A stretch of 64,000 nt of DNA from contig NZ_NASZ01000002.1 of NCBI RefSeq assembly GCF_014596575.1, positions 1 through 64,000 of the forward strand, read 5' to 3'. Position 1 is the stretch's first letter. Every line of letters starts with the position of its first letter. This document shows positions 7,404 to 19,988 of this stretch, piece after piece. The stretch is from Flavobacterium pokkalii. GTDB taxonomy: Bacteria; Bacteroidota; Bacteroidia; Flavobacteriales; Flavobacteriaceae. Below the pieces are notes generated by a model. It worked only from the letters and a program-made list of their open reading frames with translations. It had not been told where the DNA came from and made no database searches. Position numbers and translations under genes: made by a program.

Positions 7404-8525
7404 TTAAGTCTGAAATTTTCTTCCTTTCCATTCGTATTTTCCAACTAAAGCATACAAAGCCACGCTAATGCTGAAAAACGGATACAATATACTTGCTGTT
7501 AAATAGGATTGTGTTTTGCTTTTTAAAAATACATTCGTTTTGTAAATCAATAAAAAATCGACACTTAGTTTTGTCAGGAGTAAAAACGATAAAAGATACT
7601 GATTCCCGTTTCCAAAACAGAAATTCCAAAGCACAAACCATAAACTGATATTTCCGCCAAAAACAATTAATCCCAAAGCTTTTCCAAAATTACTTTGATA
7701 CGAAGTGGTTTTAGAAGCCCAGCGCACTCTTTGATAAAATAAATCTTTCCAGTTGTCTAGTGGTTTTGTGGTTACAATATGGTTTTCGGATTTTAAATAA
7801 TGTACTTTTTCAGTGCCAAAATTTGGGGAGTTTATTGCTTTTTGCAAAAGGAAAACATCGTCGCCACTGGCAATTTTATTGTTGCCTTCAAAACCGTTTA
7901 ATTTTTCGAAAAGTGACTTGGTGTAGGTCAAATTAGCACCGTTGCACATAAAACCTTTGCTTAAACCGAAACTGCCTATCGTGGCTCCCTGTAAACTGGC
8001 TAAATCCAATTGTTGGAAATAATGTAAAAAAGAATGATCTCCGGAATATTTTACGGCTCCGGCAATCATTTCTGGTTTTTGATTTTGAATATAATTATCC
8101 AAACTTAAAAGCCAGTTTTCAGGTACGACGCAATCCGCGTCGGTGGTGGTGATCCAGTCGTTTTTGATGTGTTTAATGGCGGTGGTTATCGCGTCTTTTT
8201 TTGGGGAATTTGATTTTCTGATGTTGTTTATAACCGAAATTTGAAATCTAATCCCGATAGCTACCGGGACTGGAATTTGGAATTCATCTGTTGATTGATC
8301 GTCGACCAAAATTACTTCGAATAAATTCGTTGGATAATTTAATTGCGAAAGACTTTCTAATAGTATAGGCAAATTTTCGGCTTCATTTCGAAAAGGAACA
8401 ATAATACTGAAAGCGTTTTTTGGTTTTAAGTCTAAGTTGTCAAAGGTTTTTATTTTTGAAAAACCATGAATTAAAAGCAGTATGGTTGCAAAATAAGTGA
8501 ATAATATGACGGTAACCGCAAGCAT
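7404..8525 (-). CDS. Family 2 glycosyltransferase, membrane-anchored
   Basis: 373 aa. An N-terminal membrane helix (3-20) precedes a GT-A domain with IIVPFRNEAEN (41-51), VDD (74-76), the DxD motif in TDADC, and QRVRW, the QxxRW motif of processive-type GT2 enzymes; two or three membrane helices close the protein. The start overlaps the stop of the upstream flippase-like gene by one base (TGATG), so the two are co-translated. Acceptor and sugar are unknown. Residues 82-96 hold an odd insertion (FQI repeated with a 12-residue period) encoded by a palindromic repeat. Confidence 0.88.
   Translation of the reverse strand: MLAVTVILFTYFATILLLIHGFSKIKTFDNLDLKPKNAFSIIVPFRNEAENLPILLESLSQLNYPTNLFEVILVDDQSTDEFQIPVPVAIGIRFQISVINNIRKSNSPKKDAITTAIKHIKNDWITTTDADCVVPENWLLSLDNYIQNQKPEMIAGAVKYSGDHSFLHYFQQLDLASLQGATIGSFGLSKGFMCNGANLTYTKSLFEKLNGFEGNNKIASGDDVFLLQKAINSPNFGTEKVHYLKSENHIVTTKPLDNWKDLFYQRVRWASKTTSYQSNFGKALGLIVFGGNISLWFVLWNFCFGNGNQYLLSFLLLTKLSVDFLLIYKTNVFLKSKTQSYLTASILYPFFSISVALYALVGKYEWKGRKFQT
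8236..8283 (-). repeat. Palindromic repeat inserted in frame inside the glycosyltransferase gene
   Basis: Plus-strand TCCCGATAGCTACCGGGA (an 18-bp palindrome with one mismatched pair) sits between two near-identical 12-mers, GAAATTTGAAAT at 8236 and GGAATTTGGAAT at 8272 (10 of 12 equal). The period is 36 nt, exactly 12 codons, so the reading frame is kept. Confidence 0.7.
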
Positions 8526-9472
8526 CAGGCTATAACGGTTTTAGTTTTGAAATTCAACACATAATAACTTCCGATGACAACGGGAAGTACTACGTTAAGA
8601 AACCACATTAGCGTAGAAATAAACACGACAATCCATTCGTTCACGCCAAGAATTCCAAAGAAATAAATAGCCACGCCGCCTTTTACCGCAAAATCTAAAA
8701 ACTGAAAAGTAGGTAAGGAAGAAGCTAAAAAATAAACGCTGGCAATAGTTGCAATTAATGTTAAATAAGGTAAATCGACATCAAAAGCTAAGAATAAAAA
8801 ATAATATTGATGCGAAAAAACCAAATATCGGCAAATGCCTAAAAGGATATTTTTTTGATGAATCGATTTTGGGATTTCGTTAATCTTATGAATCAGTTTT
8901 TCTATCGAATAGCCTTTGATAGCGAATTTTTTGATGGAAAAAAGAAAAAGAATAACAGCGATTAAAATTCCAAAAAGTATTAAAACCGTTTTGGGAGTAA
9001 TTACATTGAAAAGAGAATTGAAATACAGCAACCCAAAAATCCCGAAAATAACCGTTAAAACCATTTGGATTCCGTTGCAAATCAGGTTTAGGAAAACTAC
9101 TTTTTTAGCTTCCGATTTTTTGAAAAACAATGCTTTTCCGGCATATTCGCCCACGCCGTTTGGGGTGAATAATCCGGCTGTTAAGGCTGCTAAAACCTGT
9201 TTGGTCGATTCGCTCACACTGATTTTATGAATGTGTTGGGCTAAATTTTGCCATTTCAAAATTTCAAAATAACGATTTAAAACACTTAATAATAAGACAA
9301 AAGTGATTCCTCCAACGGATTGATTTTTCTGGAATAAAGTGATGAATTTTTGCCAGTCGAGTTTATCGTTATTTGCCAGTTGGTTATAAATAAACCAGAA
9401 TGCGCCGCCAACAATCAAAATTTTGATTAGAAGTACTAGGAATTGCTTAGTTTTGTGTGGTATTGAAATCAT
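8525..9472 (-). CDS. Flippase-like integral membrane protein (LPG synthetase N-terminal/UPF0104 family)
   Basis: 315 aa with seven to nine hydrophobic helices and few charged loops. FTPNGVGEYAGKALFF near 97-113 resembles the glycine-rich signature (P-x-G-x-G-E) of the lysylphosphatidylglycerol synthetase transmembrane family, without the C-terminal synthetase domain. Such stand-alone proteins are often paired with glycosyltransferases acting on lipid carriers, which fits the one-base overlap with the GT2 gene. Transport of a lipid-linked sugar is an inference. Confidence 0.8.
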   Translation of the reverse strand: MISIPHKTKQFLVLLIKILIVGGAFWFIYNQLANNDKLDWQKFITLFQKNQSVGGITFVLLLSVLNRYFEILKWQNLAQHIHKISVSESTKQVLAALTAGLFTPNGVGEYAGKALFFKKSEAKKVVFLNLICNGIQMVLTVIFGIFGLLYFNSLFNVITPKTVLILFGILIAVILFLFSIKKFAIKGYSIEKLIHKINEIPKSIHQKNILLGICRYLVFSHQYYFLFLAFDVDLPYLTLIATIASVYFLASSLPTFQFLDFAVKGGVAIYFFGILGVNEWIVVFISTLMWFLNVVLPVVIGSYYVLNFKTKTVIA

Positions 9473-9527
9473 TGGTGCAAAGAAACGAAAACTTTGAGCT
9501 TTGCACTTTAAACTTTAAATAAATCTT

Positions 9528-10082
9528 TTGGCTAACGAACGCATCATATTAGGAATTGATCCCGGAACCACGATTATGGGCTTTGGATTGATTCGTGTTA
9601 TCAATAAAAAAATGGAGTTTGTGCAACTGAACGAGCTGCAATTGTCTAAATATGATAATCATTATCAAAAGCTGAAAATCATTTTTGAACGCACCATCGA
9701 GTTGATTGAGACCCATTGTCCGGACGAAATTGCAATTGAAGCACCTTTCTTTGGGAAAAATGTGCAATCGATGTTGAAATTAGGTCGTGCTCAGGGAGTT
9801 GCTATGGCGGCTGGACTTTCGAGAGGAATTCCAATTACGGAATACGAACCTAAGAAAATCAAAATGGCGATTACCGGAAACGGAAATGCCAGTAAAGAAC
9901 AGGTGGCTAAAATGCTGCAACAGCTTTTAGGTTTGGCAGCATTGCCTAAAAATCTTGATTCGACGGATGGATTGGCGGCTGCTGTTTGTCATTTTTTCAA
10001 TTCAGGAAAAGTCGTGGCTGGTAAAAGTTATTCGGGTTGGGATGCTTTTGTGAAACAAAATGAAGAAAGAGTTAAGAAGTGA
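9528..10082 (+). CDS. ruvC: Crossover junction endodeoxyribonuclease RuvC
   Basis: Holliday junction resolvase of 184 aa. The catalytic acids are visible: D11 in LGIDPGT, E71 in IAIEAPF, and D144/D147 in LDSTDGLAAA. The basic YEPKKIKMAITGNGNA segment is the expected DNA-contacting stretch. TTG at 9528 is the start that gives the conserved N-terminus; no ATG is available in frame upstream of the first motif. It is divergent from the flippase-like gene and 54 nt upstream of hemW. Confidence 0.95.
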   Translation: MANERIILGIDPGTTIMGFGLIRVINKKMEFVQLNELQLSKYDNHYQKLKIIFERTIELIETHCPDEIAIEAPFFGKNVQSMLKLGRAQGVAMAAGLSRGIPITEYEPKKIKMAITGNGNASKEQVAKMLQQLLGLAALPKNLDSTDGLAAAVCHFFNSGKVVAGKSYSGWDAFVKQNEERVKK

Positions 10083-10136
10083 TCAGTGTTCAGTCTCAGT
10101 GCTGTAAACGGTGACTGCGATTGTAAACTAAAATAA

Positions 10137-11291
10137 ATGTCAGGGATTTACATACACATACCGTTTTGCAAGCAGGCTTGTCATTATTGCGATTTTCATT
10201 TTTCGACTTCGATGAAAAAGGCAGCCGAAATGGTTTTGGCTTTGGCCAAAGAAATTGTCATGCGTAAAAATGAGCTTCTCGACTGCGCTCGAAGTGACAA
10301 AGATGAGCTTGTTGAAACCATTTATTTTGGTGGAGGGACACCAAGTAGATTGTCTATTGCTGATTTGAAATTGCTGATTGATGCCGTTTTTGATAATTAT
10401 TCCATTTCTGAAAATCCCGAAATTACTCTGGAAGCCAATCCGGATGATTTGTCGGAAGAATATTTAATTGCGTTAAAACAAATTGGGATTAATCGTTTGT
10501 CTATTGGGATTCAGTCTTTTTTTGAAGAGGATTTACAAATGATGAATCGGGCGCATAATTCGGCTGAAGCCAAAAAATGTTTGGAACTAGCCAGTCAATA
10601 TTTCGATAATATTTCTCTGGATTTGATTTATGGTATTCCGGGAATGAGTAATGAAAAATGGAAGCAAAATATCGAAACGGCTTTGCGTTTTAATATTCCG
10701 CATATTTCCAGTTATGCTTTGACGGTAGAACCAAAAACGGCTTTGAATAAACTGATTCAAACTGGTAAAATTGCAGAACCGAAAGACGAAGTTGCTTCGG
10801 AACACTTTATGATTTTGGTTGAAATACTCGAAAAGAATGGCTTTGTGCATTATGAGTTGTCCAATTTTGGAAAACCGGATTTTTTTTCAAAAAATAATTC
10901 GGCTTATTGGTTGGGAAAAAAATACATCGGAATTGGGCCTTCGGCGCATAGTTATGATGGAATTTCAAGAAGTTGGAATGTGGCGAATAATGTACTTTAT
11001 ATTAAATCCATTGAGGAAAATAAGTTACCCAATGAAACCGAAAAATTGTCGGTTGAAGACCGTTACAACGAATATATTATGACGGGATTGCGAACGATTT
11101 GGGGTGTTTCATTAGACAGAATTCAGAATGAATTTGGACAAGATTATTTGGATTATTTACTAAAGCAATCCCAGAAATTCCTGAATGATGATTTGCTTTT
11201 TATTGAAAATAACATTTTGAAACCTACTTTAAAAGGAAAGTTCTTGACGGATGGGATTGCATCAGACTTATTTTATTTAAATTTGGAATGA
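10137..11291 (+). CDS. hemW: Radical SAM heme chaperone HemW (coproporphyrinogen oxidase-like)
   Basis: 384 aa. C11-x3-C15-x2-C18 in PFCKQACHYCDF binds the iron-sulfur cluster of a radical SAM enzyme, and GGGTPS at 65-70 is the usual SAM-contact motif; the C-terminus has the HemW domain. The first cluster is CxxxCxxC without the additional cysteine of true HemN, which favours the heme-delivery protein. Residues 46-58 (EL...DEL) contain an 11-residue insertion encoded by a short repeat, between the first helix and the GGGTPS strand. Confidence 0.92.
   Translation: MSGIYIHIPFCKQACHYCDFHFSTSMKKAAEMVLALAKEIVMRKNELLDCARSDKDELVETIYFGGGTPSRLSIADLKLLIDAVFDNYSISENPEITLEANPDDLSEEYLIALKQIGINRLSIGIQSFFEEDLQMMNRAHNSAEAKKCLELASQYFDNISLDLIYGIPGMSNEKWKQNIETALRFNIPHISSYALTVEPKTALNKLIQTGKIAEPKDEVASEHFMILVEILEKNGFVHYELSNFGKPDFFSKNNSAYWLGKKYIGIGPSAHSYDGISRSWNVANNVLYIKSIEENKLPNETEKLSVEDRYNEYIMTGLRTIWGVSLDRIQNEFGQDYLDYLLKQSQKFLNDDLLFIENNILKPTLKGKFLTDGIASDLFYLNLE
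10270..10310 (+). repeat. Short repeat inserted in frame inside hemW, with 8-bp flanking duplication
   Basis: ATGAGCTT occurs at 10270-10277 and again at 10303-10310. The 25 bases between contain CGACTGCGCTCGAAGTGACA, whose TCGA ends are inverted copies. The period is 33 nt (11 codons), so the gene stays open. The core CGACTGCGCTCGA recurs in the next gene. Confidence 0.75.
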
Positions 11292-12906: not shown

Positions 12907-12990
12907 GAGTGTGTTCAAAATTTATTTATCTTAATAAAAACAAAAGTGAGTAAAATTTGTTTTTCTAAAATTTTTTTTCCACATTTGTCA

Positions 12991-13004
12991 TGTAAACGTT
13001 TACA
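12991..13004. promoter_or_regulatory. LacI-type operator upstream of the regulator gene
   Basis: TGTAAACGTTTACA is a perfect 14-bp palindrome with the central CG typical of LacI-family sites. It ends 9 nt before the regulator start, which suggests autorepression. An identical copy precedes the downstream operon. Confidence 0.85.
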
Positions 13005-13013
13005 TTTATCAAA

Positions 13014-14021
13014 TTGTCAAATCTAAAAGCAGTAGCGGAACATTCTAAGGTTTCTATAGCCACGGTATCTAGGGTTATCAATAATGATCCTAAGGTAAGT
13101 CGTGAAACTGTGCTTAAAGTTCAGGCTTCGATTGCTGCTTTAGAATACAAACCTAACCGTGTTGCACAGCGTTTGAGAAGTTCTAACAGTAAAACAAAAT
13201 TGTTAGGACTAATTATTCCCGATATTCAAAATCCCTTTTTTGTTGATGTGGTAAGAGGTGTTGAAGATTATGCTTATCAGAACAATTTTGCCGTTATGAT
13301 TGGGAATTTTGGTCAGGATGAGAAAAAGGAAAAATTGTACTTGGATATTTTCCAATCGGAGAATATTGATGGATTAATCGTGGCGCCAATTCATGGGAAA
13401 GATAAAGGAATTGAGAATTTGGTTAAAAAGAATATTCCGGTGGTTTGTATTGACAGAGGTTTGACAGAGATTGATGTAGATGTGGTAAAAGTAGATAATG
13501 AGTTAGGGGCTTTCAATGCTATTGACCATTTATTGAATATGGGTCATAAAAGAATTGCTTTTATTTCGGGGAATTTTAAGATTCCAACCTATATCGAACG
13601 TATGTCGGGTTATAAAAAAGCTTTGGAAAAACATGGGGTTCCATTTGATGAAAGTTTGGTTTTTGCCCGAAATACCGATTATAAAAGTGGATTTGAAATA
13701 GCTCAGAAAATTTTAGAATTGGAACAAAGACCAACCGCTATTTTTTCTGGGAATAACTTGTTGACTTTAGGTGCGCTGGAAGCGATACATGCTGAAAATA
13801 TTAAAATTCCTGAAGAAATTTCTATCATTGGTTTTGATGATATGCCTTGGTCTATTTCGTTGAATCCGCCATTGACAGCAGTGCGTCAGCCCGGATTTGA
13901 TATGGGGAGAAAAGCAGCAGAGATGCTTTATGAAAGGATTGCAAATCCAGGGAAAAAGAAAGAAAATGTTATTTTGAAAACGGAGTTAATGCTGAGGAAA
14001 TCGACTACTCGAATTGAGTAG
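13014..14021 (+). CDS. LacI family transcriptional regulator of the acid-sugar operon
   Basis: 335 aa. Residues 1-50 form the LacI helix-turn-helix (LKAVAEHSKVSIATVSRVINN) plus hinge helix (YKPNRVAQRLRS); residues 60-335 form a periplasmic-binding-protein-like sensor (LGLIIPDIQNPFF, IDGLIVAP, GFDDMPWS). TTG at 13014 is taken as start because it opens the conserved helix-turn-helix; no ATG is available. Two identical palindromes, one before this gene and one before the next, make it the likely local repressor. The ligand is probably a sugar acid or an intermediate of the pathway encoded downstream. Confidence 0.92.
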   Translation: MSNLKAVAEHSKVSIATVSRVINNDPKVSRETVLKVQASIAALEYKPNRVAQRLRSSNSKTKLLGLIIPDIQNPFFVDVVRGVEDYAYQNNFAVMIGNFGQDEKKEKLYLDIFQSENIDGLIVAPIHGKDKGIENLVKKNIPVVCIDRGLTEIDVDVVKVDNELGAFNAIDHLLNMGHKRIAFISGNFKIPTYIERMSGYKKALEKHGVPFDESLVFARNTDYKSGFEIAQKILELEQRPTAIFSGNNLLTLGALEAIHAENIKIPEEISIIGFDDMPWSISLNPPLTAVRQPGFDMGRKAAEMLYERIANPGKKKENVILKTELMLRKSTTRIE

Positions 14022-14039
14022 TTTTTTTTGGTTTAAAAA

Positions 14040-14053
14040 TGTAAACGTTTACA
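14040..14053. promoter_or_regulatory. LacI-type operator upstream of the acid-sugar operon
   Basis: A second perfect TGTAAACGTTTACA, identical to the copy at 12991. It lies 70 nt before the start of the alcohol dehydrogenase gene, suited to controlling that transcript. Confidence 0.85.
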
Positions 14054-14122
14054 TTTTTGAATTTAAAAGGTTTTTTAGTGTTAAAAAGTTGTTGTATAGA
14101 GCTTTATGTTAAAAGAGAAAGA

Positions 14123-15265
14123 ATGAAAGAAATTGTAATTTTAAATCCTAATCGTGTTGTTTTCGGGGAGGGAAGTATGCAGCGATTTGTGGATGATTTT
14201 GTAGAAAAAGGTTTTAAACGTTTGTTTTTGTTGAGTATTACTGAACTTAGTCATACGTTGGCTTCTTTTTTAAATACATTAACATCACAAGGAGTTGAAA
14301 TTGTTATTGATGAATCAATTGTAGGAGAGCCAACATTTGATGATTTTAATAAAACATTAGAAAAAGCCATTGCCTTTAACGCCGACAGTGTTGTGGGAAT
14401 TGGGGGTGGAAGTGTTTTGGATGTGGCTAAATTAGTGGCTGCTCAGTTAAAAAACACGCAAACTTTAGACGAAATAAAAGGAATCGGAAATCTTAAGGAA
14501 AGACAAATTTATGTGGCTTGTATCCCAACGACTTCCGGAACGGGAAGTGAGGTTTCGCCAAATGCTATTTTTGTGAATGAATTAGGAGAAAAAGTAGGGA
14601 TTATTAGTCCGTTTTTAGTGCCCGATGCGGCTTATATTGATCCGGTTTTGACGGTTTCTTTACCAAAAAGTATCACTGCTGCTACCGGAATTGATGCCTT
14701 AACGCATTGTTTAGAAGCGTATACTAATAAATTTGCACATCCTTTTGTGGATTTGTATGCTTTAGAAGGGGTACGACTGATTGCTAAATATTTAAAAAGA
14801 GCCTGTGATAATGGTTCGGATTTAGAAGCCAGAGCGCAGGTTGCCTTAGGGAGTATGTATGGAGGAATGTGTTTAGGACCTGTAAACACGGCTGCTGTTC
14901 ATGCTTTGTCTTATCCGTTGGGAGTAGAATATCATATTCCACACGGATTATCAAATGCTTTGTTGTTACCTTATGTGATGGAATATAACATTGAAGCCGA
15001 TGTGAGTAAATACGAACGTATCGCTGAGGTTTTAGGCGCAGAAAAGAAAGCGACTTCTAAAGAAACGGCTTTGGAAGGTGTGAAAATCATGAAGCAATTA
15101 ATTGCTGATTGTGGTTTACCACTTACGTTGAGTGAGGCAGGGGTAAAAGAAGAATCGATTCCTCAATTGGCTGAAGGAGCCATAAAAGTACAACGTTTGT
15201 TGAAAAATAATATTAGAGAAATTGCCGTAGAAGATGCTGTAGCGATTTATCAATCGGCTTTTTAG
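14123..15265 (+). CDS. Iron-containing alcohol dehydrogenase
   Basis: 380 aa when started at ATG 14123, which has AAAAGAGAAAG upstream and gives the family N-terminus; an earlier in-frame TTG at 14057 would add 22 residues that do not look like the family. NAD(P) is bound by GIGGGSVLDVAKL. Metal ligands are expected in the DAAYIDP, ALTHCLEAY and HALSYPLG...HIPHG segments, all present. Such enzymes interconvert small hydroxy-aldehydes or hydroxyacids with their oxo forms. First gene of a five-gene operon; the substrate is not identifiable from sequence. Confidence 0.9.
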   Translation: MKEIVILNPNRVVFGEGSMQRFVDDFVEKGFKRLFLLSITELSHTLASFLNTLTSQGVEIVIDESIVGEPTFDDFNKTLEKAIAFNADSVVGIGGGSVLDVAKLVAAQLKNTQTLDEIKGIGNLKERQIYVACIPTTSGTGSEVSPNAIFVNELGEKVGIISPFLVPDAAYIDPVLTVSLPKSITAATGIDALTHCLEAYTNKFAHPFVDLYALEGVRLIAKYLKRACDNGSDLEARAQVALGSMYGGMCLGPVNTAAVHALSYPLGVEYHIPHGLSNALLLPYVMEYNIEADVSKYERIAEVLGAEKKATSKETALEGVKIMKQLIADCGLPLTLSEAGVKEESIPQLAEGAIKVQRLLKNNIREIAVEDAVAIYQSAF

Positions 15266-15274
15266 ATACATAAA

Positions 15275-16204
15275 ATGAAGAAAATTAAAAAATATAATGG
15301 AGTTGTGGTACCAATGGTTACGCCATTGCGTGCCGATTTGAGTATCGATTTGGATGCGGCTGGTGTTTTGGTTAATCATTTAATCGAAGGCGGATGCCAT
15401 CCTTTTGTGTTAGGAACTACGGGCGAATCCAGCTCGATTTCTTTGGAAAGCAAAATTGCTTTGGTCAAAAAAACTGTTGAGGTTGCCAAAGGGAAAGCGG
15501 TGGTTTATGCCGGAATTTCAGGAAACTGTTTCCAGGAATCGGTGGATCAGGCTAAAATGTACACCGATTTAGGAGTGGATGTTTTAGTGGCTCATGTACC
15601 GTTTTATTATCCGTTGAGTCAAAATCATATTTTAAATTATTTTAATCAATTGGCTTCGGCAGTCGCATTGCCATTGATTATTTATAATATGCCAATGACT
15701 ACTAACATGTCAATTGATTTAGAAACGGCTGATGCATTGAGTAAACACCCAAACATTGTTGGCTATAAAGAATCCGAAAGAGGCGAAGAACGTATGGCAA
15801 AAGCCATCGGACTGTGGAAAGACCGTGAGGATTTCGCTTATTTGTTAGGTTGGGCGGCAAAATCCTATGAAGGAATGTTGCTGGGTGCAGACGGATTAGT
15901 ACCGAGTACCGGAAATTTAACACCGCAATTGTACAGTACAATTTATGAAAGCGTTTTAGCAGGAAATAATGCAGCGGCTCAAAAAGCTCAGGAAAAAAGC
16001 GATGCGATTTCTAAAATTTATCAGGAAAACCAAATATTATGCAACGCTATTCCTATTCTGAAATCTTTATTGGCAAATTATAAGCTTTGTACTAAAGCCG
16101 TTTTATTGCCAATGATTGCTGTGAATGAAGCGGATGAAAAAACAGCATTGGAAAAAATTAAAAATTACGGAAACGATTTAAAAAGCATAAACAGTATTGA
16201 ATAA
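15275..16204 (+). CDS. Dihydrodipicolinate synthase/N-acetylneuraminate lyase family aldolase
   Basis: 309 aa, a TIM-barrel class I aldolase. GTTGESSS near 48-55 is the carboxylate-binding motif, IIYNMP near 137-142 holds the Tyr, and GYKES near 165 holds the Schiff-base Lys. The family adds or removes pyruvate from many 2-oxo acids. Beside an acid-sugar kinase and a PdxA-like dehydrogenase, a catabolic 2-oxo-3-deoxy-acid cleavage is more likely than lysine synthesis, but this is inference. The stop overlaps the next start by one base (TAATG). Confidence 0.88.
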   Translation: MKKIKKYNGVVVPMVTPLRADLSIDLDAAGVLVNHLIEGGCHPFVLGTTGESSSISLESKIALVKKTVEVAKGKAVVYAGISGNCFQESVDQAKMYTDLGVDVLVAHVPFYYPLSQNHILNYFNQLASAVALPLIIYNMPMTTNMSIDLETADALSKHPNIVGYKESERGEERMAKAIGLWKDREDFAYLLGWAAKSYEGMLLGADGLVPSTGNLTPQLYSTIYESVLAGNNAAAQKAQEKSDAISKIYQENQILCNAIPILKSLLANYKLCTKAVLLPMIAVNEADEKTALEKIKNYGNDLKSINSIE

Positions 16205-17247
16205 TGGAGAATAGAAAGCCAATATTAGGGATAACTATGGGAGATCCCGCCAGTATAGGACCTGAAGTAGCTGTAAAAGCTTTGTTAGATCCAAAAGTGT
16301 ATGAAGCCTGTAATCCTGTTTTGGTGGGAGAAGCAGATGTTTTTGAGCAGGCAATTGCTTTTTGTGGTTTGGATTTAAAAGTAAATCGTATTTCAAAAAT
16401 TGCGGATGCCAAATTTGAAAAAGGAACCGCCGATGTTTTTGATTTGAATTATATGAATATTGCCGATTTAAAAATGGGCGAAATCACTGCCGAAGCTGGA
16501 GATGTGGCTTTTAGAACAGTGGTTAAAAATATCGAATTGGCCTTAGCCGGAGAAATTGACGGAACGGTAACAGGTCCAATCAACAAAGAGTCTATTCAAA
16601 AAGCGGGACATATTTTTGCCGGGCACACCGAAATTTATGCGCATTATACCAATACCAAAAAATACGGAATGTTATTGGTGGAGGAAAATTTAAGAGTAAT
16701 TCACGTTTCTACGCACGTTTCCTTAAGACAGGCGTGTGATTTGGTTAAAAAAGACCGAATATTAGATACTATTTACCTTATCGATGATGCCTGTAAAAAA
16801 CTGGGTGTTCAAAATCCTAAAATCGGCGTAGCCGGATTGAATCCGCATGCCAGTGACGGAGGACTTTTTGGTTGGGAAGAAGAGCAGGAAATTATTCCGG
16901 CAGTCAATGAAGCTTTAGCAAAAGGCTATAATGTGGAAGGTCCAATTCCTGCCGATACTTTGTTTCCAAAAGCTATTGGAGGTGTTTATGATGGTTGTGT
17001 GGCTATGTACCACGATCAGGGACATATTCCGTTTAAAGCGGTTGGGTTTAATTGGGATCAGTCCAAAGGACAAATGAAAAGCGTTAGAGGTGTAAATATT
17101 ACTTTAGGGCTTCCTATTATTCGAACTTCGGTAGATCATGGTACGGCTATGGAAATTGCAGGAAGAGGTATTGCCAGTCCGGATGCTATGGTGCTTGCTG
17201 TTGAATACGCGGCAAGATTACACAAAAATAAACAAGACAAGCAGTAG
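16204..17247 (+). CDS. PdxA-family 4-phospho-hydroxyacid dehydrogenase (PdxA2-like)
   Basis: 347 aa. The family motifs are GDPASIGPEV near 12, GHTEIYAHYT near 139, GLNPHASDGGLFG near 208 and MYHDQGHIPFK near 267, giving the three metal-binding histidines. True PdxA acts in vitamin B6 synthesis; paralogues paired with DUF1537 kinases oxidise and decarboxylate 4-phospho-threonate or 4-phospho-erythronate to dihydroxyacetone phosphate. The immediately following DUF1537 gene makes the catabolic role the better reading. It is translationally coupled to the upstream aldolase. Confidence 0.9.
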   Translation: MENRKPILGITMGDPASIGPEVAVKALLDPKVYEACNPVLVGEADVFEQAIAFCGLDLKVNRISKIADAKFEKGTADVFDLNYMNIADLKMGEITAEAGDVAFRTVVKNIELALAGEIDGTVTGPINKESIQKAGHIFAGHTEIYAHYTNTKKYGMLLVEENLRVIHVSTHVSLRQACDLVKKDRILDTIYLIDDACKKLGVQNPKIGVAGLNPHASDGGLFGWEEEQEIIPAVNEALAKGYNVEGPIPADTLFPKAIGGVYDGCVAMYHDQGHIPFKAVGFNWDQSKGQMKSVRGVNITLGLPIIRTSVDHGTAMEIAGRGIASPDAMVLAVEYAARLHKNKQDKQ

Positions 17248-17251
17248 GAAG

Positions 17252-18403
17252 ATGATAGCGGTTATTTCAGATGATTTTACAGGGGCTGCCGAAGTAGGCG
17301 GAATTGCCTTGCGCAATGGTTACAGCGTTACCATAGATACTAGTGTAAACGCAAATTACGACTGTGATATTTTGGTAATTGCAACAAATACGAGGTCTTT
17401 GTGTACAGTTGAGGCTCAAAAACAAATCAGGGAAGTAACGGAAGAATTGCTTAAATTGAAGCCCGATTTTATTTATAAAAAAACCGATTCTTTGTTGAGA
17501 GGCAAAATCGGGGAGGAACTTGAGGTGCAGTTAACGGTTTCCGGAAAGAAAAAAGTGCTGTTAGTTCCGGCTAATCCGGCAATGAACCGCACGATTGTGG
17601 ACGGAATTTATTATTTGAATAAAATTCCTCTGATGGAATCTGATTTTTCCGGAGATGAGTTTGAAAGAAGAGCCACTTCCAGTGTTTTGGATATGATTGG
17701 AGACGAATACAGAGACCAGGCTTTTTCTGTTTCTTTGGGACAAAAAATACCGAAAGAAGGATTCATTATTGGAAATACGCCAACAAATGAAGATTTGATG
17801 GGCTGGGCCAAAATTATTGATGATACGATGCTGCCTGCCGGTGGAGCGAGTTTTTTTAATGCTATTTTAAGAACTATTAAAAAAGAAGAATCTGCCTTGA
17901 AAAAGGAATTCTCTTTTGGTAAAAAAGCATTGTACGTTTGCGGAAGTAATCATTTGCCAAGCAGAGAAGTGGTTCGTGAAGTAAAAGAAACCGGAGGAAG
18001 TGTATTGTATATGCCGAAATCTATTTTGTGTGCGGATAATTTTGAAGAAAATATTACGCAGTGGATTGATGCTATCACAGCTGCAATTGAACAAAAAGAC
18101 AAGGTAATTATTGCTGTTGATACTTTGGAATGCAAGAAAACGGAAGAACTTTCCTGCAGCATAAAGGAAATATTTGCCACAGTGGTGAAAAAAGTGCTTG
18201 AAAAAGTAAATTTGGATGAATTATTGATAGAAGGTGGTGCAACAGCTTATGCTATTATTGAACATTTGGAATACAAAAAGTTTTACCCGGAGCAGGAATT
18301 TGCTCAGGGGGTAATCAGAATGAAAATAGAAGAAAAAAAAGAAATGCATTTAACCCTAAAACCAGGAAGTTATCAGTGGAATGAATCTGTCTGGAAATTT
18401 TAA
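17252..18403 (+). CDS. Four-carbon acid sugar kinase (DUF1537 family)
   Basis: 383 aa from ATG 17252, which follows the GGAAG sequence and begins MIAVISDDFTGAAE, the known N-terminal signature; an upstream in-frame extension lies inside pdxA and is not credible. The N-terminal domain binds the sugar acid (DDFTGAAE, KKTDSLLRG), and the C-terminal nucleotide domain has LLIEGGATAYAI. Characterised members phosphorylate threonate or erythronate at O4 and feed a PdxA2-type dehydrogenase, the gene just upstream. The stereochemistry of the substrate cannot be read from the sequence. Confidence 0.9.
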   Translation: MIAVISDDFTGAAEVGGIALRNGYSVTIDTSVNANYDCDILVIATNTRSLCTVEAQKQIREVTEELLKLKPDFIYKKTDSLLRGKIGEELEVQLTVSGKKKVLLVPANPAMNRTIVDGIYYLNKIPLMESDFSGDEFERRATSSVLDMIGDEYRDQAFSVSLGQKIPKEGFIIGNTPTNEDLMGWAKIIDDTMLPAGGASFFNAILRTIKKEESALKKEFSFGKKALYVCGSNHLPSREVVREVKETGGSVLYMPKSILCADNFEENITQWIDAITAAIEQKDKVIIAVDTLECKKTEELSCSIKEIFATVVKKVLEKVNLDELLIEGGATAYAIIEHLEYKKFYPEQEFAQGVIRMKIEEKKEMHLTLKPGSYQWNESVWKF

Positions 18404-18416
18404 TTTTATCTAAATT

Positions 18417-19988
18417 ATGAGTGGAGCCTCGTTACATTTTATCGATTATTTAATTATTGTTTTGTCTTTGGTACTGACCTTTTGGGTGGGAGTCAAGTTC
18501 TCTAAAAAGAATACCAATACGGAGCAATACTTTGCAGCCGGAGGCAGTATTCCGGCCTGGGCAGTAGGAATGTCTATTTTTGCCACTTTAATCAGTAGTG
18601 TGACTTTTTTGGCTTATCCGGGTGAAGGTTATAAATCCAACTGGATTTTACTGGTTCAGGGATTTATGGTTCCTGTTGTCTTGCTTTTTTCCATCCGTTT
18701 TATTGTGCCCTTGTATCGCAATGTCATTGGTTTGAGTGCCTATGAATATTTCGAAAAACGATTTGGCTATCTGGCGCGGGTTTATGGTTCTTTAGGCTTT
18801 ATTTTTGCTCATTTTTCTAAAATGGGTTCGGTGTTATTTCTTTTGGCTTTGGCTTTGTCATCTATGACCGGAGTTGATGCTTTAACCGTTATTTGGATTA
18901 TTGGTATTGCCATTATTTTTATCACTCTTTTTGGTGGAATGGAAGCCGTAATCTGGCTGGATGTGATTCAGGGATTTTTACTAATTTTAGGAGGAATCGT
19001 AGCTATCGCAGTTATTCTCTTTAAAACCGATGGAGGTCTTGGAGCAATAGTAAATTATGCTGTTGATAACGACAAAATAGGTTTCGGACCTTATGATTTT
19101 GACTTTGTCAACCTTACTTTTTGGGTGATGGTAATCAATGGTATTTTTTATGCCATTCAAAAATATGGAGCCGATCAAACGATTGTACAACGTTATCTAA
19201 CCGCTAAAACCGATAAAGATGCGATTAAAGCTTCGGTTTTAGGAATTGCCATTACGGTTCCGGTTTGGACCGTTTTTATGTTTATTGGTACGGCTTTGTT
19301 CTCTTTTTATGCGTTGAATCCACAATTGCATTTACCGGAAGGGATCGCTTCTGATGCCGTTTTCCCTTATTTCATTACCACTCAATTGCCTCCGGGACTG
19401 ATTGGTTTAATTTTGTCGGCATTGATTGCAGCGGCAATTTCGAGTCTGGATGCCGATTTGAATTGTTTGGCCGCAGTAGGTGTTGATGATTATTACAAAA
19501 GATTAAAACCGGGAGCTTCCGGTTTACAACATCTTAGAATGGGTAAAATCTTAGTAGTTGCAGCCGGTTTAGCCGCAATTTTAGTCGCCAGCGTTTATGT
19601 GTATTATGGAGAAGATGAAGGAATTTTGTCAACCGTGTTTATGTTGTACGCTATTTTTTCAGGTGGAATTGCCGGAATGCTATTGTTAGGACTTTTTGTC
19701 AACAGAGCCAACAGAAAAGGGTTGAATGTGGGGATTGTTGCCTGTATTTTGTTTACCGGTTTTGCGTTGCTGACTTCTACTAAAATAGGAACCGGAGAGG
19801 CCAAACACCTTATTCTGGATATGGGAGATTTCAATTATACCCATCATAAATACATGTTAGGTGTTTACAGTCATATTGTATTGTTTTGTGTGGGTTGGAT
19901 TGCTAGTTACTTTTTTCCGAAAGAAGAAGTGCCAAATCATCTGACGTATTATGGTTATTTGGAGAAAAAAAGAAAAGGACTTATTTAA
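18417..19988 (+). CDS. Sodium:solute symporter family transporter
   Basis: 523 aa with about 13 predicted membrane helices. The N-terminus (FWVGVKFSKKNTNTEQYFAAGGSIPAWAVGMSIFATLISSVTFLAYPG region) is typical of the SSS family, and LSALIAAAISSLDADLNCLAA near 335 is the conserved sodium-site helix. It closes the acid-sugar operon 13 nt after the kinase and is followed by a terminator, so it is most likely the inner-membrane importer of the operon's substrate. Confidence 0.9.
   Translation: MSGASLHFIDYLIIVLSLVLTFWVGVKFSKKNTNTEQYFAAGGSIPAWAVGMSIFATLISSVTFLAYPGEGYKSNWILLVQGFMVPVVLLFSIRFIVPLYRNVIGLSAYEYFEKRFGYLARVYGSLGFIFAHFSKMGSVLFLLALALSSMTGVDALTVIWIIGIAIIFITLFGGMEAVIWLDVIQGFLLILGGIVAIAVILFKTDGGLGAIVNYAVDNDKIGFGPYDFDFVNLTFWVMVINGIFYAIQKYGADQTIVQRYLTAKTDKDAIKASVLGIAITVPVWTVFMFIGTALFSFYALNPQLHLPEGIASDAVFPYFITTQLPPGLIGLILSALIAAAISSLDADLNCLAAVGVDDYYKRLKPGASGLQHLRMGKILVVAAGLAAILVASVYVYYGEDEGILSTVFMLYAIFSGGIAGMLLLGLFVNRANRKGLNVGIVACILFTGFALLTSTKIGTGEAKHLILDMGDFNYTHHKYMLGVYSHIVLFCVGWIASYFFPKEEVPNHLTYYGYLEKKRKGLI

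Follow-up and report, generated by a model that had tools for sequence, protein, structure and literature searches.

A putatively LacI-controlled operon of Flavobacterium pokkalii and a proposed route for utilization of the rhamnogalacturonan II sugar Dha

Introduction

Which acid sugar is consumed by an operon that joins a DUF1537 kinase and a PdxA2-type dehydrogenase to a DapA-like lyase and an iron-containing alcohol dehydrogenase (Fe-ADH)? The operon lies at positions 13014-19988 of a 64,000-nucleotide stretch of Flavobacterium pokkalii DNA (contig NZ_NASZ01000002.1, positions 1 to 64,000), hereafter the window, whose genome is denoted G000. D-threonate catabolism by DtnK and PdxA2 was reportedly described by Zhang et al. 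in PNAS in 2016, a study cited in PMC9997740 and PMC12540250, and the initial annotation of the operon proposed that a longer or deoxy acid is shortened before such four-carbon steps, although it named no substrate, missed the operators described below and, being based on the window alone, had no means of linking the operon to a polysaccharide utilization locus elsewhere in the genome. Its interpretation is partly supported. The proposed shortening fits the evidence assembled here and can be made specific: we put a probability of roughly 0.7 on the operon being the cytoplasmic end of the utilization of 3-deoxy-D-lyxo-2-heptulosaric acid (Dha) from rhamnogalacturonan II (RG-II), a reading built on sequence comparison. 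RG-II is the most complex pectin of plants, and Dha is one of its rare sugars, an acid with seven carbons. Dha is described as a sugar of RG-II in passages of PMC6353982 and PMC12282258.

The Operon and the Proposed Route

Positions 13014-19988 are filled by six genes on the same strand, and all six proteins were assigned by Pfam above gathering scores, which bears out the annotated combination of a LacI repressor with a DUF1537 kinase, a PdxA-like protein, a DapA-like lyase and an Fe-ADH. The features are as follows.

12990..13005, no strand: operator 1, exact palindrome ATGTAAACGTTTACAT whose end is 8 bp upstream of the TTG start of LacI
13014..14021, + strand: LacI-family repressor, TTG start
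14039..14054, no strand: operator 2, exact palindrome ATGTAAACGTTTACAT, before the Fe-ADH gene
14123..15265, + strand: Fe-ADH, proposed reductase of a C4 aldehyde-acid to D-threonate
15275..16204, + strand: DapA/NAL-family Schiff-base lyase, proposed Dha aldolase yielding pyruvate and 2,3-dihydroxy-4-oxobutanoate
16204..17247, + strand: PdxA2-type dehydrogenase, proposed 4-phospho-D-threonate dehydrogenase/decarboxylase yielding dihydroxyacetone phosphate (DHAP) and CO2
17252..18403, + strand: DUF1537 (SBD_N/NBD_C) kinase, short form, 383 aa, proposed D-threonate 4-kinase
18417..19988, + strand: sodium:solute symporter (SSS), proposed inner-membrane Dha importer

The DapA-like and PdxA2 genes overlap by one base, with the kinase gene following 4 bases on and the symporter gene 13 bases after that. 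An upstream TTG at 14057 is a possible start of the Fe-ADH gene; its orthologs in loci L022, L024, and L025 start at the position corresponding to ATG 14123. A longer DUF1537 frame from 17138 is also possible, the ATG at 17252 being the one that opens the conserved domain. The kinase and its counterpart in F. daejeonense DSM 17708 share 98% identity.

DapA-family lyases convert 2-keto-3-deoxy acids to pyruvate and an aldehyde. Since pyruvate and a C4 acid add up to a C7 diacid, Dha, a 2-keto-3-deoxy diacid of seven carbons, fits as the substrate. Fischer bookkeeping indicates that the C5/C6 configuration of Dha would give, after cleavage and reduction, the D-threo C4 acid D-threonate, which is the isomer of the DtnK/PdxA2 route, and D-threonate models are among the best NCBIfam matches of the operon proteins.

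We infer every substrate and reaction of the route as follows. Outer enzymes of an RG-II polysaccharide utilization locus (PUL), including a BT_1020-like Dha hydrolase, would free Dha, which the SSS symporter would import. The DapA-like Schiff-base lyase would then cut Dha between C3 and C4 into pyruvate and the D-threuronate-type C4 aldehyde 2,3-dihydroxy-4-oxobutanoate, the Fe-ADH would use NADH to reduce the latter to D-threonate, and the DUF1537 kinase would phosphorylate D-threonate to 4-phospho-D-threonate, which PdxA2 would oxidise and decarboxylate to DHAP and CO2, regenerating NADH. The net reaction, Dha + ATP -> pyruvate + DHAP + CO2 + ADP, would be redox neutral.

Family Assignment of the Enzymes

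The DUF1537 kinase gene adjoins the PdxA2-type dehydrogenase gene, as is characteristic of the D-threonate pathway. The best NCBIfam match of the kinase is D-threonate kinase (98.7 bits, below the cut-off of 450), and the PdxA protein scores 313.5 bits against the D-threonate-4-phosphate dehydrogenase model, below the cut-off of 583. As these equivalog cut-offs are missed, we regard the two proteins as working like the D-threonate enzymes and do not file them as their orthologs.

The lyase matches PF00701, and T48-T49, Y137, and K165 are invariant in 15 sequences, as expected of a DapA/NAL Schiff-base lyase. It scores 169 bits against the dihydrodipicolinate synthase (DHDPS) model TIGR00674, below the cut-off of 206, and carries Thr142, likewise invariant in 15 sequences, at the place of the substrate-binding arginine of DHDPS, which we take to be Arg138 in E. 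coli numbering. In the Fe-ADH, D191, H195, H260, and H274, presumably the metal ligands, are invariant in 15 sequences, and the best NCBIfam match is lactaldehyde reductase (TIGR02638, 259.9 vs 523 bits; PRK10624, 244.8 vs 537). A second PdxA, 32.7% identical to that of the operon, is encoded at G000:C1:352935, and another DapA-like gene lies at G000:C17:54402. Roles in DHDPS activity, lactaldehyde reduction and pyridoxal phosphate biosynthesis were set aside, given the missed curated cut-offs and the second PdxA and DapA-like genes elsewhere in the genome.

Conservation of the Four-Enzyme Cassette

All four enzyme genes are present in each of the 16 complete loci (the window, L013-L016, L021, L022, L024, L025, L027, and L064-L069; L023 and L026, cut by contig ends, were left out). 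L021 is 98% identical and practically of the same species as the window. None of these loci lacks the lyase or the dehydrogenase, so the genomic outcome that would have refuted the initial annotation did not occur; the lone kinase/PdxA2 pair found without these two genes is in genome G203 (L017), where a kinase 23-24% identical stands beside PdxA2 and a KdgT permease only. The symporter gene adjoins the enzyme genes in 15 of the 16, and in G176 a symporter 60% identical lies 21 kb upstream of the cassette. Two gene orders occur, Fe-ADH-DapA-PdxA2-DUF1537-SSS in 12 loci (one of them without SSS) and DapA-SSS-Fe-ADH-PdxA2-DUF1537 in L064-L067.

The cassette is uncommon. A kinase search of 395 Bacteroidota genomes gave six matches at E <= 1e-10, five of them with all four enzyme genes side by side (5/395) and the sixth being G203, and among 397 Flavobacteriaceae genomes it was found in five (5/397, short-type kinases only). 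In the latter sample, the short form was called from score and frame length, and all five short-form neighbourhoods were read; the long form occurs in 39 genomes, and three of their neighbourhoods (L070, L071, and L072) were read.

Several further genes accompany the cassette. Directly upstream of it at L016:14128-18227 (G033:C1) are genes for an FGGY kinase and a ribose-type ABC transporter. In L064:10419-13851 and L067:10992-14429 the cassette is directly followed by a solute-binding-protein-like gene, which was assigned by Pfam for L064 and by resemblance for L067, and by a pair of genes that look by eye like those of CoA-transferases. A gene for a protein resembling HpcH/HpaI-type aldolases, and apparently bearing a signal sequence, lies near the cassette at L117:1647-2621 (G074; by Pfam) and L119:6702-7679 (G031; by resemblance). 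L065:959-5420 (G750:C12), which lies past the end of the cassette on its kinase side at a distance of about 4 kb, encodes a protein of xylose-isomerase type, the C-terminal subunit of a transketolase (the partner subunit was recognized by eye) and an FGGY kinase; the set resembles a sugar route via transketolase, perhaps for apiose.

Operators and the Putative Shared Regulon

The repressor gene is one of six LacI-type helix-turn-helix genes in the genome, and none of the other five has its helix VSIATVSR. Its operator 1 probably serves autoregulation, judging from its position at the lacI start. The exact palindrome recurs near the lacI start in L021, L022, L024, L025, and L026, and before the Fe-ADH gene in the same five loci and in L027 of Mangrovibacterium marinum, which is the only case of the latter outside Flavobacterium.

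The 14-base core TGTAAACGTTTACA has six copies in the genome, where about 0.05 would be expected from base composition: two at the cassette, two before susC of a PUL on contig C68, one before a gene for a 928-residue secreted protein (C24) and one inside a susC-like frame (C15). The same arrangement, two copies of TGTAAACGTTTACA at the cassette and two more, spaced by 66-69 bp, before susC, is found in G000, F. daejeonense G899 (nearly identical to the window genome), F. flevense G900, and F. seoulense G901, in which the susC genes are orthologous and lie 17.3-18.2 kb from the hydrolase gene considered below. The remaining sites number two in G899, none in G900, and one in G901 (before another susC). 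Six cassette-less Flavobacterium genomes, two of them with the hydrolase, hold a single TGTAAACGTTTACA site in all, inside a coding frame, and a reversed control pattern gave one site in 11 genomes. In G074, a LacI 55% identical is encoded about 9 kb upstream of the cassette, with only a site of two mismatches before that lacI.

Because predicted LacI sites stand before lacI, the enzyme genes and susC, uptake machinery and catabolism would be induced together, with the repressor acting on ATGTAAACGTTTACAT; both the repressor-operator contact and the inducer are what we infer here from the positions of the sites.

Two exact operators lie away from the cassette and the C68 PUL. One, the C24 copy listed above (L018:7303), lies 98 bp before the gene for the 928-residue secreted protein (7415-10201), whose only domains recognized by Pfam are a secretion tail and one of Ig type; the protein is a candidate member of the same regulon. 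The other, in M. marinum (L132; G898:C26, about 31989), stands before a gene of sialidase-like (BNR_2) type, and a further DapA-family gene comes next; this may be a parallel branch for 3-deoxy-D-manno-octulosonate (Kdo).

The RG-II PUL and Its Dha Hydrolase Homolog

The C68 locus spans about 70 kb of the minus strand (C68:27000-95400, 33 frames), and its RG-II-type hydrolases (GH141, apiosidase, BT_1020-like, GH127) stand beside SusC/SusD, as in an RG-II PUL. Eleven of the 33 frames were scanned by Pfam; they include a BT_1020-like propeller, GH141, apiosidase, BT_3657/GH43-like, GH127, sialidase-like and LacZ-type GH2 proteins, and one frame without a family. GH78, GH106, GH95, SusC, and SusD were named by eye only.

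The propeller protein matches PF24067 (E 4e-126) and aligns with 759 bits to residues 23-609 of 5mqr (1108 residues); with 624 aa, it is without the C-terminal GH142 half. The founding enzyme of GH143 is, we assume, BT_1020. According to parts of PMC6811678, the founding enzyme from Bacteroides thetaiotaomicron is bimodular and combines an arabinofuranosidase site with a Dha-hydrolase site, and a passage of PMC7263609 places the arabinofuranosidase (GH142) site of BT_1020 at Glu694. As the match ends before Glu694 of this two-centre enzyme, the Flavobacterium protein would correspond to the Dha-hydrolase half and is a predicted GH143-type Dha hydrolase homolog.

The Dha reading and the expectation of a BT_1020-like hydrolase in the operator-sharing PUL had been set down before the family results, and the homolog was then found; some of the PUL and the beginning of the gene in M. 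marinum had by then been viewed as unlabelled frames. The gene initially considered for this role, L074:3255-6608, proved to encode a LacZ-type beta-galactosidase, the homolog being another gene of the same PUL.

Linkage and Co-occurrence of Hydrolase and Cassette

Outside Flavobacterium, the two are in places directly linked. In M. marinum (L027), the symporter gene is followed on the same strand by genes for an apiosidase, a GH43/BT_3657-like protein and, 2.4 kb downstream, a BT_1020-like hydrolase, while GH78 and GH127 genes lie upstream of the cassette, and in G031 and G496 the hydrolase gene is 7.2 kb downstream of the cassette on the same strand. A PF24067 hydrolase is present in 13 of the 16 cassette genomes, and the cassette-less G203 has no PF24067 match.

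In the family sample of 397 Flavobacteriaceae, all five cassette genomes are among the 14 strong PF24067 carriers (P 2.5e-8; 7.1e-7 without our own genome; 1.5e-6 with all 29 PF24067 rows), where strong denotes E < 1e-70 and the other 15 rows range from 7.6e-7 to 9.7e-4. For these counts the kinase and hydrolase scans were treated as the same draws of genomes (397 in the family, 395 in the phylum), as their sizes and the handles shown agree. The hydrolase is likewise associated with the long-form kinase, which belongs to a different route (7 of 39 genomes, P 1e-4), and a general effect of pectin degraders thus contributes to such numbers.

Discussion

Several observations weigh against the Dha route. 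No operon protein reaches an NCBIfam model below the generic level, since the curated cut-offs attained belong to generic models only (TIGR00557 pdxA, 333 vs 290 bits; TIGR00813 sss, 223 vs 184), and we can cite no precedent for an Fe-ADH acting on a C4 uronate-type aldehyde. In the phylum sample of 395 genomes, the overlap of cassette and hydrolase is only 3 of 5 among 21 carriers (P 0.0012; 2 of 4 and P 0.014 without our own genome), and all the co-occurrence P values ignore shared ancestry. Hydrolase and cassette are unlinked in G033, G577, G669, G646, and G750, and no operator was found near the cassettes of L013-L016 and L064-L069, which include those five genomes. Further, the cassette is missing from the majority of hydrolase carriers, namely from 9 of the 14 strong ones in the family sample and from 18 of 21 in that of the phylum, so that it would be an optional add-on, or another route exists. 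The cassette-less hydrolase carriers G616, G806, and G816 have DapA-like genes 31-35% identical to the operon lyase, located beside another SSS gene and isomerase, FAH or SDR-type genes (by eye), with no kinase/PdxA2.

The same enzyme logic could also serve a different acid from the same RG-II PUL or from a similar polysaccharide, such as another 2-keto-3-deoxy diacid or an acid sugar of a sulfated algal glycan, and this, too, has observations in its favor that count against Dha: L014 and L069 have sulfatase genes next to the cassette, as do L015 and L068 if resemblance alone is taken as the guide, and three of the 16 cassette genomes, namely G176, G074, and the fragmented G502, have no PF24067 match. 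Among the proteins scanned near the cassettes of G176 and G074 (six and two, respectively), no Dha-hydrolase-like propeller was found, the domains present being GH127, GH43, GH28, GH2, lectin-type and FG-GAP/rhamnogalacturonan-lyase-like. However, the PUL indicated by operator sharing or by direct linkage in Flavobacterium and M. marinum is the one with the Dha hydrolase, and Dha is the sole C7 acid in the RG-II sugar lists found in passages of PMC6353982 and PMC12282258; we therefore consider a different acid unlikely. Kdo is very improbable as the substrate. It stands beside Dha in RG-II according to a passage of PMC12282258, and a Schiff-base lyase of the DapA-like family could cleave it, but the products would be pyruvate and D-arabinose, a C5 aldose needing no C4-acid kinase or PdxA2, and Kdo was set aside on this carbon count; moreover, the second DapA-like gene of M. 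marinum, beside the sialidase-like gene behind its own operator, would be a better Kdo candidate.

Nearly as improbable is a coexistence of two routes in one operon, in which the kinase and PdxA2 would degrade D-threonate or D-erythronate, while the lyase would cleave an unrelated 2-keto-3-deoxy acid (e.g., from rhamnose or fucose) and the Fe-ADH would reduce the resulting lactaldehyde. The lactaldehyde reductase match of the Fe-ADH (260 bits, below the 523 cut-off) and the kinase/PdxA2 pair of G203 without lyase and Fe-ADH are in line with two routes. On the other hand, a single route more readily accounts for the presence of the four genes side by side in all 16 complete loci, across both gene orders, and Pfam found in the window operon no dehydratase for the formation of a 2-keto-3-deoxy sugar acid.

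Apiose, also an RG-II sugar, appears to be served by a separate RuBisCO-like/long-DUF1537 cluster in the same genome, which we count in favor of Dha. At L070:8653-11959 (G000:C66), genes for a RuBisCO-like protein, a long DUF1537 kinase and an Asp/Glu-racemase-type protein stand in a row, with a GH28 gene nearby. We take clusters of this kind to be linked to apionate, and the one at L070 looks like an apionate-type cluster; as it lies elsewhere in the genome, apionate was set aside as the substrate of the operon. Carter et al. are said to have reported, in 2018, D-apionate routes with a RuBisCO-like protein and a long DUF1537 kinase. The proposed Dha route is similar in that a DUF1537 kinase would act on an unusual acid sugar, whereas the cassette kinase differs from those in length, partners and locus.

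Compared with D-threonate catabolism by DtnK and PdxA2, the Dha route would likewise use a DUF1537 kinase followed by a PdxA2-type dehydrogenase and end in DHAP and CO2. By contrast, the operon adds the DapA-like lyase and the Fe-ADH upstream, an SSS importer and a LacI operator common to the RG-II PUL, and its kinase is a short, distant form, as its low D-threonate kinase score indicates. The combination of an aldolase that yields pyruvate and an aldehyde with a reductase that removes the aldehyde resembles a route in part of PMC6353982, in which the aldehyde is a neutral C3 compound, whereas the C4 acid aldehyde proposed here would go on to the kinase and PdxA2. The C68 PUL is like the RG-II PULs of B. 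thetaiotaomicron, as far as parts of PMC12282258 and PMC6811678 describe them, in having a BT_1020-like homolog, GH141, an apiosidase-type enzyme and GH127. It is unlike them in that its hydrolase homolog has no GH142 half (624 vs 1108 aa) and in that Flavobacterium has a putatively co-regulated catabolic cassette for the acid that would be released.

Taken together, we consider it probable, if a little less so than the assignment of the operon to Dha utilization itself, that the cassette provides a complete, redox-neutral bacterial route for Dha, present as an optional cassette in some RG-II degraders of the Bacteroidota and tied to the RG-II PUL by a LacI operator. No paper on Dha catabolism was among the literature matches listed, a coverage outside which most subscription papers fall, and we take the combination of these known families into one route to be undescribed. 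If the route is correct, it would make the lyase the first Dha aldolase to be assigned, the Fe-ADH the first C4-uronate reductase and the symporter the first Dha transporter. The Dha route would thereby give functions to a conserved cassette and explain why DUF1537/PdxA2 pairs occur with an aldolase and an Fe-ADH, and the cassette would serve as a marker for RG-II degraders that also consume Dha.

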